Positions 1-20,136 of a DNA stretch of 21,432 bases are shown in pieces; position 1 is the first letter of the stretch; each line of letters starts with the position of its first letter. Both the position numbers and the translations under genes were made by a program. The stretch lies in the IMG/VR virus record IMGVR_UViG_3300042502_001607, positions 1 through 21,432 of that record; one strand, 5' to 3'. The notes below the pieces were generated by a model. The model saw only the letters and a list, made by a program, of their open reading frames with translations, was not told the DNA's origin and searched no databases. The stretch comes from a virus.

Positions 1-1
1 A

Positions 2-109
2 GCCGGTAAAGGTCTTAGAAACTTTGTAATGTCCAAGGTAAAGCGTGCAGAGGATACGCCCAGTGAAGTCCTTTTCTGGGACTCCGTTTATTCTCTGCCG
101 AACGTTTAA
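2..109 (+). CDS. Possible 3' end of an unidentified gene (partial)
   Basis: The frame starting at base 2 is open from the window edge to a TAA at 107-109, giving about 35 residues that end in ...SVYSLPNV. I recognise no family. The last codons and the stop fall inside the neighbouring attC site, which is common for integron cassette genes. However, the structure of that attC site argues for cassettes reading on the minus strand, so this could be a chance open frame. On the minus strand one frame over the same bases is also open. Low confidence. Confidence 0.22.
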   Translation, partial: AGKGLRNFVMSKVKRAEDTPSEVLFWDSVYSLPNV

Positions 110-199
110 GCTCAGCGATGAACGTGCTTGGCGCGGAGTGTGCTGCTCGGAGCACAATCCGTGACAAGCATGTTCATTCGCTGTAGCGCTTGGTTCGGC
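97..199 (-). repeat. Integron attC recombination site (attC1)
   Basis: This 103-base imperfect inverted repeat has outer arms GCCGAAC (97-103) and GTTCGGC (193-199). Inside them, 110-130 pairs with 165-187. Read on the minus strand the order is canonical: GCCGAAC, a 5-base spacer, an 8-base 2L box, a variable loop, a 7-base 2R box, a 6-base spacer, then GTTCGGC. The arm at 165-187 has two unpaired bases (T184, and T177 or T178) separated by a 6-bp helix. That is the spacing of the extrahelical bases known to orient attC recombination. The loop has its own small GTGCT/AGCAC hairpin. One outer-box position departs from the RYYYAAC/GTTRRRY consensus. Known for the family: the site is recombined as a folded single strand by the integron integrase. 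Confidence 0.72.
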
Positions 200-208
200 T
201 CAGTGATT

Positions 209-508
209 TTATTCCGCTAAGTTTTCGATTCGGAAAAATGATTCAGCACGCCGGACATGCAAAATATAGACATCACCATCCGTGATTCTATAATAAATCC
301 AGCACGGACTGATCCAAAGCTGTCGATAATTCGAAGCCGGAAATTCAGGAATTGATCGCCCGATCAATTTGAATCGCTCGACATTTCCCGTGGCATCGAA
401 AACCAATTGAGCGACCCGTTTAGCGGCTAACGGCTTATCCAGAGATATGTAATCTACAATAGCTTCAAGCTGCCGAAGCGCAGGCTCCGTCCAAATTAAT
501 TGAGCCAT
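209..508 (-). CDS. ParE/RelE-family toxin of a type II toxin-antitoxin pair
   Basis: The 99-residue product has the length and layout of the ParE/RelE superfamily: an N-terminal W6 with A10 and L11, an amphipathic helix pair with YI at 20-21 and a central GRSIPEF motif at 50-56. A C-terminal sheet follows, with YRQLW at 61-65, YYRI at 72-75 and ILHVRR at 82-87. ParE members poison gyrase and RelE members cleave mRNA on the ribosome; the sequence alone does not separate the two. The start codon (ATG, 508-506) lies inside the last codons of the antitoxin gene, a 13-base overlap typical of translational coupling. The stop is only 9 bases from attC1, so gene and site form one cassette. Toxin-antitoxin cassettes of this sort are known to stabilise large integron arrays. 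Confidence 0.85.
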   Translation of the reverse strand: MAQLIWTEPALRQLEAIVDYISLDKPLAAKRVAQLVFDATGNVERFKLIGRSIPEFPASNYRQLWISPCWIYYRITDGDVYILHVRRAESFFRIENLAE

Positions 509-753
509 TTCGCAAAACGTAATTTGGCATCCTCATTACTTACGATGCGACCATCACGGATCGCCTGCTCACCAAGAGCAATTCCTTCAAGTATGGATAA
601 TTTTTTCTGCAAACCCTCAAAGGACTCCACATCTATCAAATATGCAGCTGGACGACCATGCTGCGTAATCAAAACAGGGGAATGATCATCCTGTAGCGCT
701 GTAATGATTTCCGTAGCTTTTCGCTTAAGGGTTGTGACGAGTTCGGTTCTCAT
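496..753 (-). CDS. Phd/YefM-family antitoxin
   Basis: The 85-residue product matches the Phd/YefM layout. An N-terminal helical half (T7 to L20) leads into the conserved strand-turn segment VLITQHGRPAAYLIDVESFE at 27-46, which forms the dimeric DNA-binding fold. A charged C-terminal tail (from about residue 50) would wrap around and neutralise the toxin. In this family the antitoxin, with or without toxin, represses its own promoter by binding a palindrome. A perfect 8+8 palindrome abuts the start codon here. The gene lies upstream of the toxin and overlaps it by 13 bases, so the two would be made from one minus-strand transcript. Its base composition is well below that of the phage genes further right. 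Confidence 0.87.
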   Translation of the reverse strand: MRTELVTTLKRKATEIITALQDDHSPVLITQHGRPAAYLIDVESFEGLQKKLSILEGIALGEQAIRDGRIVSNEDAKLRFAKWLN

Positions 754-771
754 GTGGCACTAAAGTGCCAC
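754..771 (-). promoter_or_regulatory. Palindromic operator of the toxin-antitoxin operon
   Basis: GTGGCACT (754-761), two bases, then AGTGCCAC (764-771) form a perfect inverted repeat directly next to the antitoxin start codon at 753. Phd/YefM antitoxins autoregulate through such palindromes, so this is the likely binding site. It overlaps the proposed -10 element. Confidence 0.6.
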
Positions 772-789
772 TCAGCGAGACGTTGTCAA
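759..789 (-). promoter_or_regulatory. Candidate promoter of the toxin-antitoxin operon
   Basis: On the minus strand a perfect TTGACA lies at 789-784. A TTTAGT at 764-759 is 19 bases downstream and matches TATAAT at four of six positions. Transcription would begin at or next to the antitoxin ATG at 753, giving a leaderless or almost leaderless mRNA. The -35 match is strong; the -10 and its spacing are weak. The promoter lies inside the cassette, so it could work regardless of integron position. Confidence 0.45.
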
Positions 790-800
790 GTTTCATCTTT

Positions 801-896
801 GCCGAACGTTTGAGGTGACCTATGTCCGCAAAACCTGTGACTCTAAAACAATCAGAACTGACTAGCGCGGACATTAGGTCTAGCGACTGGTTGGGC
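801..896 (-). repeat. Integron attC recombination site (attC2)
   Basis: This 96-base imperfect inverted repeat has outer arms GCCGAAC (801-807) and GTTGGGC (890-896). The inner helix pairs GACCTA-TGTCCGC (817-829) with the arm around 867-880. On the minus strand the order is GCCCAAC, 5 bases, GCTAGACC, loop, GGTCACC, the 6-base spacer TCAAAC, then GTTCGGC. The two unpaired bases (T881, and T874 or T875) sit exactly where they do in attC1. The sequences of the two inner helices are unrelated, so structure rather than sequence has been kept, as expected for attC. The region 801-97 read on the minus strand is then one cassette of about 700 bases carrying the toxin-antitoxin pair. Confidence 0.72.
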
Positions 897-937
897 TGTA
901 TGACTTCCGTAATTCCGAATAACTAAACGATAACTTT

Positions 938-1171
938 ATGACTAAATGTAAAACAAGAACCGAATGGCTCGACCTGCTGCATAAATGTCAGAACGGCGAC
1001 GCCACCTGCATGTTTGTGCTGGGAGAAATCGAACGGGAAAACGCACGGCTGCTAGGGCTTCTAAGTGAAGTCTTTCAATGCATAGAATATGCGGAACGGT
1101 GCGGCGGACTGGACTCGGTCACTGAAATCAAGGTACGCCGTGCTTTGTCTGCCTCGCCCAACGTACACTAG
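938..1171 (+). CDS. Small hypothetical protein, function unknown
   Basis: I do not recognise this 77-residue product. It is hydrophilic, has four cysteines (C4, C17, C24 and C48, with another near C55) and a probable long helix from about residue 25 to 50. It has no membrane segment and no signal peptide. It starts with ATG 41 bases after attC2, has no Shine-Dalgarno sequence, and is followed by an intrinsic terminator at 1239-1281. Its base composition resembles the integron part more than the phage. Its last codons (SASPNVH) read through GCCCAACGT, which resembles an attC outer box, but I could not find a partner arm. It could be a cassette gene in reverse orientation or a phage edge gene. 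Confidence 0.5.
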   Translation: MTKCKTRTEWLDLLHKCQNGDATCMFVLGEIERENARLLGLLSEVFQCIEYAERCGGLDSVTEIKVRRALSASPNVH

Positions 1172-1238
1172 TGTAGAGGATTTGCCAGATAGGCACGCCA
1201 CACCCCGCCGAAACTGGAAAAAGGTAAGCATTCCACGG

Positions 1239-1281
1239 GTAAGGATAGGCAGGACCAACCCCTGTAAATCCTTACTTTTTT
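1239..1281 (+). terminator. Intrinsic terminator after the small gene
   Basis: GTAAGGAT (1239-1246) pairs perfectly with ATCCTTAC (1268-1275), with a second internal CAGG/CCTG helix in between, and is followed at once by six T (1276-1281). It would stop plus-strand transcription leaving the 938-1171 gene and so insulate the terminase genes from it. Confidence 0.7.
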
Positions 1282-1410: not shown

Positions 1411-1947
1411 ATGGGCGTGACGCCCGAACCAGCACCGCAACCCGAAGCCGCCCAGCCCGAATTGTTCGCGCTGGATACCGTGCAGGGTTATGGAGCGCTA
1501 AAACCGAAGGAGCAACTGTTTGCGCAGGCCATCTTTGAAGGACACTCGCAACGCGCCGCCGTCAAGCTGGCCGGGTTCACCGGGAGCGCCGCCTCCCTCG
1601 ACGTCGCAGCGTCCAGATTGTTAAAAACCGCTAAGGTCCAAGGGCTTCTCAACCAAGCCTGGGTGCGCAGCGGGGCCTCGATCGACACGACCCTGCGCCA
1701 GGCCGCCGAGTTGCAGGCCCGCGCTTTCCGCGAGGCGATCAACAGCGACACGGTGGAGAAGCGGAAGCTGGCCTCGGCCCAATGGAAGGACGCTTCGAGC
1801 CTGATCGCGTCGATCCACGGCAAACTCACTCTCAACGTTAAACACACCGGCACGGTGGAATTCAGCCTGCCGCCCGAGGCGCTCGCCGCCTTGACCGCCA
1901 CCCGCCGCGAGTTGATCGCCGCCAACCAACCGGAGGCCGCCGCTTGA
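1411..1947 (+). CDS. terS: Terminase small subunit
   Basis: This is the DNA-recognition subunit of the packaging motor, which brings the ATPase/nuclease subunit to concatemeric phage DNA. The 178-residue product shows the usual helix-turn-helix region at about 29-80: LKPKEQLFAQAI, then the turn around EGHSQRAAVKLAGF, then ASRLLKTAKVQGLL. The pattern 'L-x-P-K-x-x-x-F ... A-A-x-x-A-G' followed by 'A-S-R-L-L' is typical of small terminases. A Pro/Glu/Ala-rich tail (1-20) precedes it and an Ala-rich tail ends the protein. The ATG at 1411 has no strong Shine-Dalgarno sequence. The gene sits directly before terL, overlapping it by 4 bases, which supports the assignment. It is the first gene of the GC-rich phage block. 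Confidence 0.8.
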   Translation: MGVTPEPAPQPEAAQPELFALDTVQGYGALKPKEQLFAQAIFEGHSQRAAVKLAGFTGSAASLDVAASRLLKTAKVQGLLNQAWVRSGASIDTTLRQAAELQARAFREAINSDTVEKRKLASAQWKDASSLIASIHGKLTLNVKHTGTVEFSLPPEALAALTATRRELIAANQPEAAA

Positions 1948-3452
1948 AGCTCGCCGACATGAGTCCGGAGCAGAAGGCGCTGCTGACTTCGCCCTACGGG
2001 TTCGGCCGTTACCTGCTAGGCATCCCGATCGCCGACACGGCGACCCCCAAAGTCGTGGCCGAGTGCCGCGACGAAAACCAACTTTACTACAAGGTCACCG
2101 CCAACGATCGCCAGAAGCAGGTGATCCAGGCGATGGAGCCGCACGGGGCGCGCGTCTCGGTGCGCACCTGCAACGGCGCAGGCAAGACCACGGTGCTGAT
2201 TCCGACCGTGGTGCTTTGGCACATGGCGCTGCACCCGCAGAGCAAGGTGGTCATCACCTCGGGCGTGGAGCGCCAGGTGCGCGGCCAGTTGTTCCCCGCG
2301 CTGCGCGCCCATGCCGGACGCCTGCCGGGCTGGGAGTTTACCGACAACCAGATCACCGCGCCGAACGGATCCGTGGCGATCGGCTTCTCGACCAACGACG
2401 GCGGGCGCTTCGAGGGCTGGCACGGCAACATCAACCCGCTCTACGACCAGCGCACCTCGGGCCCGCTGATGATCGTGGTGGACGAGGCCAAGAGCATCGC
2501 GCCGACGATATTTGACGCGATCGACCGCTGCACGTACCAGCGCTTGCTGTTTGCGTCGAGCTGCGGTGGCAGCACCGGCAAGTTTTACCGGAGCCAGACG
2601 AGCGAGGCGAAGTTTTACAAAACGTTTCAGATCGCCTCCGAGCATTGCCCACACGCGGACCACGCGAAGAACGCGGCGCTGATCGCCATGCGTGGCATCG
2701 CGGATCCGTTGGTGCGATCAAAGGTGTTTGCCGAATTCATGGAGGGGGCCGAGGGCACGATCATCAAGGCCGCGTGGCTGACTTCCCTGCGCAACAACCC
2801 GCCCGCCGCCATGGGTGGCGAGGAGCGGGTGTTCTGCGACTTCGCCGCCGGTGGTGACGAGAACGTGATCGCGTACCGCAAGGGCAACCGCGCCCGCGTC
2901 GTGGCCGCTTGGCGTGAGAAGGACACCATGAAGGGCTGCGGGCAATTTATTGACCACTTCAGAAAAATGGGGATCACCCCCGCGCGCTGCGCGCAGCTCG
3001 TGGCAGGCGACGCAGGCGGCCTCGGCAAGGTGATGCTGGACCGGCTCGCCGAGCTGGGCTGGGTCTTGGAGCGGGTCAACAACGGCAGCCGCGCCCGCGA
3101 CAAGGCTTATGCCAACATCGCCGCCGAGACGTGGTACGAGGGCGCGAAGGCGATCGAGCAGGGTCGCGTCGTGATTGACGAACTCGACGACGCCACCATC
3201 GCCCAGCTGACCGAGCGCACCGGCTACACCAACAGCGCAGGCGTGCTCCACGTCGAGGCCAAGGAGGACATGAAGTCGCGCGGCATCGACTCGCCCGACC
3301 GCGCCGACGCGTTGCTTGGGGCGATGAAGGAAAGCCGCCCGTGCGACCCGATCCCGTTTGTCGGTGGCTTCGAGCCCGACACCGGACTGATCGAACAAAT
3401 GGCCCAACGCCAGGGCATCACCGACATGGCCGGAGCCTTCGCCGGTTACTAA
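1944..3452 (+). CDS. terL: Terminase large subunit (packaging ATPase and nuclease)
   Basis: This is the motor protein that cuts concatemeric DNA and pumps it through the portal. The 502-residue product has a Walker A motif at about 74-83 (RTCNGAGKTT), a Walker B at 175-182 (LMIVVDEA) and a C-motif region near 203-210 (FASSCGGS). The C-terminal RNase H-like nuclease has acidic residues at D299 (CDFAAGGDE), D356 (AGDAGG) and D452 (SPDRADALLGA). All key motifs are present, so it looks intact. I place the start at TTG (1944), inside a TTGA overlap with the terS stop. GGAGG at 1932-1936 stands 7 bases upstream. An ATG at 1959 is the alternative. The portal gene follows after 51 bases. Confidence 0.95.
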   Translation: MKLADMSPEQKALLTSPYGFGRYLLGIPIADTATPKVVAECRDENQLYYKVTANDRQKQVIQAMEPHGARVSVRTCNGAGKTTVLIPTVVLWHMALHPQSKVVITSGVERQVRGQLFPALRAHAGRLPGWEFTDNQITAPNGSVAIGFSTNDGGRFEGWHGNINPLYDQRTSGPLMIVVDEAKSIAPTIFDAIDRCTYQRLLFASSCGGSTGKFYRSQTSEAKFYKTFQIASEHCPHADHAKNAALIAMRGIADPLVRSKVFAEFMEGAEGTIIKAAWLTSLRNNPPAAMGGEERVFCDFAAGGDENVIAYRKGNRARVVAAWREKDTMKGCGQFIDHFRKMGITPARCAQLVAGDAGGLGKVMLDRLAELGWVLERVNNGSRARDKAYANIAAETWYEGAKAIEQGRVVIDELDDATIAQLTERTGYTNSAGVLHVEAKEDMKSRGIDSPDRADALLGAMKESRPCDPIPFVGGFEPDTGLIEQMAQRQGITDMAGAFAGY

Positions 3453-7032: not shown

Positions 7033-8040
7033 ATGGCCGTTATCGACTCCACCCTGATCGCCAACACGATCCAGCCCCAGTATTCCAAGAAGCTGCTCGG
7101 CCACGCCGTCCAGCTCACCAAGCTCATCGACACCGCGCAGCTCGAGGAGTTGCCCGCCAACGCAGGCAGCACCAGCGTGCGCTTTTTCCGCCCTCCGGTT
7201 GCCAATTTGGCCGCTGAAGGCGCGCCCGCCGCGCTCGCCGAGGGCATTGCACCGTCCGCCTTCCGCTCCATCGCTTACACGCCCATCGACGTGACGCTCG
7301 CCCAGCGCGGCGCCGTGGCGAAGGTGACGGACATCGCCAACAACGTCGGCTTGGTCAAGTACCTCGACACCGCGATCGAGCTGATGGGCGAGGAGTTCGC
7401 GTTGGATTTCGACACCCTGCTGCGCAACATCCTGATCCACCCCAGCACCGGCCTGAGCAAACGCTACGGCCAAGGCCTGGCGAGCTTCGCTGCGACCGCC
7501 TCGGCCACCGTGGCCAACTCGGTCATCACCCCGCGCGACCTGCTCAACGCGATGACGCAGCTCAAGATCGCCCGTGCCCCGACCTTCGGCGGCAAGTACG
7601 TGGCCGTGCTTCCCCCGCAGGTGATTTCCGACTTGCTGAGCAATTCGGAGTTCCGCGAGGTCGTGCGCCAGAACAACGCCAACAAGATCTTCAACGGTGA
7701 GGTGGGCGAATACTACGGTTGCAAAATCGTGGAGGCCACCAACCCGTTCCAGGAGGATGAGACCGAGGGCACCTTTGCCACGACCTTCTCGGCCGCTGGC
7801 AGCAACACCACCGGCCTGATTTACACCAGCATCATCACCGGCAAGGGTGCCTATGGCTGCGTGAACATGAAGAAGATGGGCGCTTCCCCGCAAAAGCCCC
7901 AGCTGATCATCAACGACAAGCCGGACTCGGGCAACCCGCTCGGCCAATGGATGACGGTGGGCTGGAAGGCCTTCTACGCGGGCATGATCCTCAACAGCGC
8001 GTGGGGCATCTCGCTGCGCACCAAGTCGCAATTCGCCTGA
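7033..8040 (+). CDS. Major capsid protein, N4-gp56-like family
   Basis: This is the main shell protein, present in hundreds of copies per virion. The 335-residue product has the typical start of the N4-gp56 group: a short N-arm, then QLTKLIDTAQLEELPANAG, a strand with SVRFFRPP, a loop rich in Ala/Gly/Glu (LAAEGAPAALAEGI), and IDVTLAQRGAVAKVTDIANN at about 92-112. A middle section with PRDLLNAMTQLKIARAPTFG and the C-terminal GCVNMKKMGASPQKPQLIINDKPDSGNPLGQ look like the HK97-fold A-domain. The gene follows the scaffold candidate by 57 bases and is followed by a strong hairpin at 8064-8094, as is common after highly expressed capsid genes. The start sits in a CACCACCACC leader. Confidence 0.88.
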   Translation: MAVIDSTLIANTIQPQYSKKLLGHAVQLTKLIDTAQLEELPANAGSTSVRFFRPPVANLAAEGAPAALAEGIAPSAFRSIAYTPIDVTLAQRGAVAKVTDIANNVGLVKYLDTAIELMGEEFALDFDTLLRNILIHPSTGLSKRYGQGLASFAATASATVANSVITPRDLLNAMTQLKIARAPTFGGKYVAVLPPQVISDLLSNSEFREVVRQNNANKIFNGEVGEYYGCKIVEATNPFQEDETEGTFATTFSAAGSNTTGLIYTSIITGKGAYGCVNMKKMGASPQKPQLIINDKPDSGNPLGQWMTVGWKAFYAGMILNSAWGISLRTKSQFA

Positions 8041-19308: not shown

Positions 19309-20136
19309 ATGAGCTACCTAGCCGACGGATTAAGTCAGGGATTCCAATCAGGGTTCGCCGCAGGCACCCAGAAGAAGCGCGACAAAAAGCAGGCCGAAGA
19401 CCAGAAGGCCCGCGACGTGCTGCAAGGCGAACAGGCCAAGGCGCTTCAAACCGAGCGCTTGGAGGCCGATGCCAAGCGGGATTTTGAAAACCGCACCTGG
19501 CGCAGCGGGGAATCGGAGCTGGATCGTATCAACCGCTCCGATGAGGCCAATGTTGACCGCGCACTGCGTGCCGCCGAACTGACCAAGCGCGCCGAAGCGG
19601 AGCAGGCAGACCAAGCGTTAAAGGCCTCGCTTTATTACGACCAGCAAAGCCGCCAGGATGAACAGGCGAGCGTAGCCCGCGCCCTAGCCGCGCCGATGCA
19701 AGCGGAACAACTGCGTGCCATGAAGCAGCAAAACGACGCCTACGGCCAACCCAAGCCGCTACCCGTGCCAATGGAGACGCTCGAATACGATCCGATGGAT
19801 CCGACCGGTGCCCCCAAGCGGCGCATCACCGGCCCTCTCGGCAGCCTTGGCACGATCACGGGAGCGGCCGCGCCAGCCGGAGCCAAACCGGCCAGCGTGA
19901 TTGATTCATTCCTCAAGCCGCCCGCTGCGGCAGCTTCCACCACAGCGGAGCCTGCGCAGCCTGCCGCCGCCGCAGCCTTCCCCGCACCCAAGCCTGCGGC
20001 CCGCGACAATGGTGATATGCAGCGCTTGCTGCGCCAGTTTGGAGCCCTGCCGCCCGAACAAATGGCCGCCGAACTCGCCGCCGCTGGTATCCAAGTCAAC
20101 CCCGACGCCCTCCGCCGTCCGAACCGCACCTATTAA
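19309..20136 (+). CDS. Coiled-coil hypothetical protein, probable internal virion protein
   Basis: The 275-residue product has a Gly-rich amphipathic start (MSYLADGLSQGFQSGFAAG), then a very charged coiled coil from about 20 to 130. An Ala/Pro-rich linker follows (about 190-240) and a short helical end (MQRLLRQFGALPPEQMAAEL). No enzyme motif is seen. Together with the genes on each side it fits the internal protein group of a podovirus, but likeness to a named protein is not visible. The leader is A-rich and ends in ACACC before ATG. Confidence 0.6.
   Translation: MSYLADGLSQGFQSGFAAGTQKKRDKKQAEDQKARDVLQGEQAKALQTERLEADAKRDFENRTWRSGESELDRINRSDEANVDRALRAAELTKRAEAEQADQALKASLYYDQQSRQDEQASVARALAAPMQAEQLRAMKQQNDAYGQPKPLPVPMETLEYDPMDPTGAPKRRITGPLGSLGTITGAAAPAGAKPASVIDSFLKPPAAAASTTAEPAQPAAAAAFPAPKPAARDNGDMQRLLRQFGALPPEQMAAELAAAGIQVNPDALRRPNRTY

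Follow-up and report, generated by a model that had tools for sequence, protein, structure and literature searches.

An attI-headed cassette array without an integrase gene in a phage, probably of Verrucomicrobiota

Clusters of attC sites lacking integron integrases (CALINs) are known from phage genomes, including those of virulent phages (Qi et al. 2023; PMC9892861). Five of six phage attC sites tested in E. coli were recombined by the integron integrase IntI1, and one prophage carries a RelE/ParE–Phd cassette (PMC9892861). The cassettes in TJE1 and PH101 are described as same-direction, and attI is reported there only for prophage and P1 integrons (PMC9892861). The present study concerns a 21,432-nucleotide stretch of viral DNA, positions 1 to 21,432 of the IMG/VR record IMGVR_UViG_3300042502_001607 (the window), in which a toxin–antitoxin (TA) cassette lies between two attC sites in an array headed by an attI-like site. 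We consider it highly probable that this locus is an integrase-less integron, composed of an attI-like site and a row of attC sites, in a Verrucomicrobiota phage, and that it is worked in trans by the integron integrase (IntI) of the host.

The array resembles the described phage CALINs in that attC sites stand in a row without an integrase gene (intI). With at least two attC sites and no intI nearby it falls within that class, but the attI-like site exceeds the usual definition. It also differs in its predicted Verrucomicrobiota hosts, in genes mostly inverted relative to attC, in cassettes shared among at least five unrelated backbones, and in cassette replacement between two near-identical phages. 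The sedentary chromosomal integrons of Verrucomicrobiota in two genomes (G537 and G006) are alike in attC structure and sequence, attI-like sequence and cassette boundaries, whereas the phage lacks intI, has a short array with mostly other attC loop subtypes, and shows a reversed gene direction in most cassettes. The type II (ParE/Phd-YefM) TA cassettes of chromosomal integrons share with the cassette described here overlapping genes, attC direction and a promoter-like sequence before phd, but this one stands in a phage array, where any stabilising role would be putative. In the literature covered, which was partial and without preprints, no report was found of phage arrays that have an attI at their head but lack intI, of integron components in Verrucomicrobiota phages, or of inverted genes and such cassette exchange in phage arrays. 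Phage attC clusters are already known, and the attI platforms without intI, the inverted genes and the cassette exchange are new relative to that literature.

The attC and attI-like sites of a complete phage genome

A previous interpretation made from the letters of the window alone (the sequence-only reading) had proposed that two imperfect inverted repeats of 103 and 96 bases are attC sites bounding a TA cassette. Both repeats, at 97..199 and 801..896, are attC sites on the minus strand. Their outer boxes are 7 nt each (GCCGAAC...GTTCGGC and GCCGAAC...GTTGGGC, respectively), their spacers are 6 and 5 nt, and the minus strand of each carries a pair of extra A residues 6 positions apart (GCT[A]CAGCG[A]ATG and GCT[A]GACCT[A]ATG), while direct comparison of the inner arms and loops reveals no relation between the two sites. 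Common boxes, similar spacers, two extrahelical bases at matching positions of the same arm and unrelated inner helices had all been described in the sequence-only reading, and this description holds. Folded as single-stranded DNA, the repeat at 97..199 has an energy of −32.1 kcal/mol (z = −6.4). The energy of the repeat at 801..896 is unexceptional (z = −1.2; 23 of 200 shuffles equally good) and fails to prove that site, and a covariance model of the structure was therefore required.

The covariance model, R1, was built from 27 chromosomal attC sites of Verrucomicrobiota and contains no phage sequence. A scan of about 85,000 species genomes with a pattern taken from the conserved right arm had yielded 43 stretches, mostly in Verrucomicrobiota. 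In the alignment of the 27 bacterial sites both columns of extrahelical A show no variation, and covariation in the stems (0.416 versus 0.117 in shuffles) is far above shuffled and slid controls. R1 matches the minus strand of the window at 97..199 (96.9 bits, E 6e-24) and 801..896 (59.6 bits, E 4.9e-14). The next unrelated match scores 15.6 bits; the E-values are rough because the calibration was short. A covariance-model hit on the minus strand, as predicted, is thus obtained, although with our own model rather than that of IntegronFinder. The attC at 97..199 is of chromosomal (host) type, being identical at 101 of 103 positions to one attC of the chromosomal integron of G537, a genome of the Opitutaceae family, with both differences in paired positions. 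In contrast, the attC at 801..896 belongs to a subtype common to other phages, with relatives in G022, G023, L130 and L147. Rfam gave no match within the window, nor did a near DNA search of annotated phages. Dispersed REP (repetitive extragenic palindromic) or transposable elements were rejected as an identity for the repeats, which occur in tandem rows at cassette-sized spacing in phages and chromosomes. Most matches of the pattern GTAGCGCNTGGTTSGGC in viral contigs were also rejected because the partner arm is absent, many of them being one repeated phage gene.

The window is part of a complete phage genome and not a bacterial integron. Another contig (G002; 38,859 b) is identical to the window over 19,169 b and then reaches the opposite end of the window at 99.7% identity; its own termini share a 127-b repeat. 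The end repeat and the overlap with both ends of the window therefore define a complete phage genome with a circle of about 38.7 kb, in which the array lies between the replication genes, in the region of a DnaC-like helicase loader, and the terminase genes. Extending the window leftward in G002, as the sequence-only reading had suggested, gave one further attC (G002 19440-19532; R1 35.9 bits, same strand), making three same-strand R1 matches in the array. The integron integrase gene sought there did not appear: no TIGR02249 or PF00589 match was found in the 38.9-kb G002, complete by its end repeat, or in 13 other array-bearing contigs. Hence no tyrosine recombinase match is present in 14 of 14 contigs, most of which are fragments; G002 and G028 carry 127-b end repeats indicating complete genomes.

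All these contigs are metagenomic, and repeated attC sites may confuse assemblers, so that artificial joins of phage and host integron, or integron sequence wrongly classed as viral, have to be considered. However, the window and G002 are consistent with each other across the array and form a single circle, phage genes flank the array on both sides in several contigs, and the cassettes of phages are unlike those of chromosomes in their attC subtype, in the direction of their genes and in content. Such an origin is therefore extremely improbable.

The attI-like site is located at 1156..1251 on the minus strand and adjoins the array as its head. It belongs to a stretch of about 95 b that follows the closing box of the last cassette, to the right of the last attC, and is conserved in 13 of 14 phage contigs. 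The sequence model R2 was made of 11 phage attI-like sites including the window copy and most phage copies, whose scores are therefore high by construction; the G021 site and the bacterial sites were outside the training set. Among 200 genomes of the Opitutaceae family, R2 matches eight, the best being G524, G006 and G537. In G006, G524 and G252 the match shows the same geometry and lies 470–640 b away from where the intI match begins, suggesting that the conserved head of the phage array is related to sites beside intI. G537 contains three attI-like copies inside its long chromosomal array (L219 6407-6492 and 12380-12467; L220 718-795), kilobases from intI. A viral contig of 23,050 b (record G571) has an attI-like site of 66 bits (L199 12165-12257); no attC was found in the whole record, which is possibly an empty platform. 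Matches to an attI-core pattern at L194, L195, L196 and L198 were rejected for lack of model support.

Cassettes as units of exchange among phages

Pattern scans and R1 searches of IMG/VR contigs gave the 14 array-bearing contigs, each with one to ten attC sites clustered on one strand. Eight control viral contigs gave no R1 match at E 0.1. By nucleotide similarity the 14 contigs represent at least five unrelated backbones, and the hallmark genes differ among the lineages tested: a lambda-type gpA terminase with portal, a head-to-tail connector (PF12236) type, a phrog_2 terminase, and a terminase with portal and HK97-type capsid. Two further records stand apart. G031 (record of L138/L156; 44,784 b), a phage or host fragment without an IntI match, has eleven more distantly related attC sites, grouped in two clusters that lie on opposite strands, and L038, a viral contig (record G572; 58,339 b), has four weak attC-like matches (24-41 bits) in two places.

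Integron recombination cuts at G|TT, and hence six box bases are part of the adjacent cassette. A match is therefore expected between the right box of one attC and the left box of the attC that follows. In the phage arrays 42 of 59 such pairs match, compared with 19.7 in shuffles (0 of 10,000 as high), and the two boxes within one site match in 24 of 59. The same test in a chromosomal integron gave 33 of 35 versus 25.2 in shuffles, and the boxes of the last attC and of attI agree in 11 of 13 cases. Cassettes G020.1 and G028.7 are identical over 268 of 268 b including attC, and cassettes G019.4 and G023.1 are 98.8% identical, each pair lying on unrelated backbones. The phages G023 and G030 show 99.92% identity across 12.5 kb outside the array, yet different cassettes stand between their left flanks, which are identical over 880 b, and their common attI; the breakpoints, GCCTAA|C and the attI box, are the integrase cut points. 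These comparisons indicate that cassettes move as units cut at G|TT and are exchanged between phages.

Exchange could also arise by homologous recombination within similar attC sites of co-infecting phages, with no integron integrase involved, as the phage attC subtypes are alike in sequence and offer short homologies. However, the box bases travel with the neighbouring cassette rather than with their own site, the G023/G030 breakpoints are not those favoured by exchange within attC, and the attI-like site and the host-type attC are left unexplained, so that this mechanism is highly improbable. A one-off capture of a host integron piece by illegitimate recombination, leaving an inert CALIN, would agree with the lack of intI in the phage and with the phage CALINs already known (PMC9892861). 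Such a capture is highly improbable, and for the group it is already contradicted, since this type of attI-like site heads the arrays of at least five unrelated backbones, two phages that are nearly identical have different cassettes with breaks at the cut points, and different lineages have cassettes in common. The precedent that phage attC sites are IntI substrates (PMC9892861) supports recombination by a host IntI instead.

The phd/parE cassette and the direction of cassette genes

The TA cassette is a predicted recombination unit of 704 b at 103..806 on the minus strand, comprising box bases, a promoter region, phd, parE and attC. Its length equals the start-to-start spacing of the attC sites at 97..199 and 801..896. 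The right box of the former (GTTCGGC) pairs with the left box of the latter (GCCGAAC), as the G|TT cut predicts, whereas within the latter site the left and right boxes are mismatched. The Phd/YefM-type antitoxin gene (496..753, minus; 85 aa; PhdYefM, PF02604, Pfam 5e-14) overlaps the ParE-type toxin gene (209..508, minus; 99 aa; PF05016, 4.7e-14). With both domains above the cut-off and the genes overlapping in one operon, the pair is a predicted type II ParE/Phd-YefM system, and the proposed TA cassette between matched attC sites is confirmed. Just before phd, positions 755-795 on the minus strand contain a TTGACA-like box and the palindrome GTGGCACTTTAGTGCCAC, likely its own promoter and operator. 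In chromosomal arrays of this attC type genes run into the extra-base side of attC, in agreement with the earlier statement that the strand of the extrahelical bases fits that of the Phd/ParE genes. The opposite orientation, suggested by the order GCCxAAC...GTT alone, was rejected on the same comparison.

The TA cassette differs from its neighbours in having the chromosomal gene direction and the 103-nt chromosomal attC type. Among the phage cassettes five have an attC of 103 nt, and the longest open reading frame (ORF) has the host direction in four of these five but in only 14 of 67 others (p = 0.01). Because the attC is of host type and the genes have the host direction, capture of the phd/parE cassette from a host integron is the simplest reading. 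Possible roles of the TA pair are stabilisation of the array and an action on the host.

Most other phage cassettes have the reverse direction. Among 72 phage cassettes with mechanically called ORFs, the main ORF is oriented like the phage genes and against the usual cassette direction in 39, and in the usual direction in 7 (26 ambiguous), compared with 1 opposite and 25 usual (9 ambiguous) in the chromosomal array of G537 (p = 5e-12). Many phage ORFs extend into the adjacent site, which provides the final residues and the stop codon (LPNV, LPNVQAQR or LPNVV before the stop). Families encoded by the larger phage cassettes include those of RNA ligase, DNA methyltransferase and PAPS reductase, typical phage accessory genes that distinguish their content from that of chromosomal cassettes; most have no known relative.

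The neighbours of the TA cassette follow this pattern. The cassette first after attI (807..1161, minus; 355 b) contains an inverted gene, gene C (938..1171, plus; 77 aa), with its last residues PNVH and stop codon in attI and with homologs in the arrays of G021 (89%) and G029 (78%). Its right box at attI, GCCCAAC, pairs with GTTGGGC, the right box of the attC at 801..896. On the other side, the 3' end of gene B (1..109, plus), the inverted gene of the next cassette, ends SLPNV-stop inside the attC box region; full gene B encodes 108 aa in the longer contig (L003 3840-4166) and has weak homologs in the G025 and G029 arrays. Beyond attI, the phage backbone at 1411..3452 adjoins the array with the terminase small subunit gene (1411-1947, plus; phrog_51, 1.2e-6) and, at 1944-3452 on the plus strand, what is probably the large subunit gene, judging from its position and a weak phrog_5902 match. 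A perfect 14-bp inverted repeat with a 7-nt loop lies at 1337-1371, between the attI-like site and the terminase gene. The phage major head protein gene is located at 7033..8040 on the plus strand (phrog_1357, 1.7e-36).

Host integrons and the proposed role of the host integrase

The bacterial genomes with such attC sites contain tandem arrays at cassette spacing. IntI exceeds the curated cut-off in 9 of 13 genomes with such sites, two of the 13 being Planctomycetes, and in 69 of 200 genomes of the Opitutaceae family. The host is probably a member of the Verrucomicrobiota, from the Opitutaceae or near relatives. The IntI of an infected host would act in trans to cut the phage attI and the folded attC, probably at the stage of infection at which single-stranded DNA forms, thereby inserting, excising and exchanging cassettes with other phages and with the chromosomal integron of the host. 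The phd/parE cassette would have been acquired from a host integron, while the other cassettes, mostly phage accessory genes, may be read together with the phage genes by virtue of their opposite orientation.

Sequence comparison shows the homology of the attC and attI sites, the cassette boundaries, the exchange and the absence of a tyrosine recombinase, while the identity of the enzyme as host IntI, its action during infection, the direction of capture and the host are inferred. Several points weigh against this mechanism. Neighbouring boxes are mismatched in 17 of 59 pairs, and part of the arrays has therefore drifted or been otherwise rearranged. The bacterial sites match the phage attI model at only 22-37 bits, and in few genomes of the family; the host is assigned solely from attC and attI similarity. 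The phages may encode a recombinase of another type than a tyrosine recombinase. The donor TA cassette was not found in the chromosomes searched: ParE homologs gave 44 matches in 384 genomes of the class, with none of 15 inspected loci adjoining a detected attC, and a search of plasmids gave only one weak TA match, in Vibrio. The phage set was also found through attC, a selection that bears on prevalence.

More generally, and with less confidence than for the locus itself, it is likely that unrelated, apparently non-integrating phages keep an integrase-less integron as a port for gene exchange that depends on host IntI. Phages and hosts would then share a pool of cassettes, reorganised to fit phage transcription by inverted genes and by LPNV or LPNVQAQR tails and stops taken from the neighbouring attC or attI.

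The host-integrase mechanism is directly testable with existing attC × attI assays. If it is true, the host integron integrase, usually seen as a tool of bacterial adaptation, would also exchange accessory genes for phages, and the attI-like site would be a simple marker for finding such phages and linking them to hosts. It would provide a defined and precise gene route among unrelated phages and between phage and host, and thus a new force in integron evolution.
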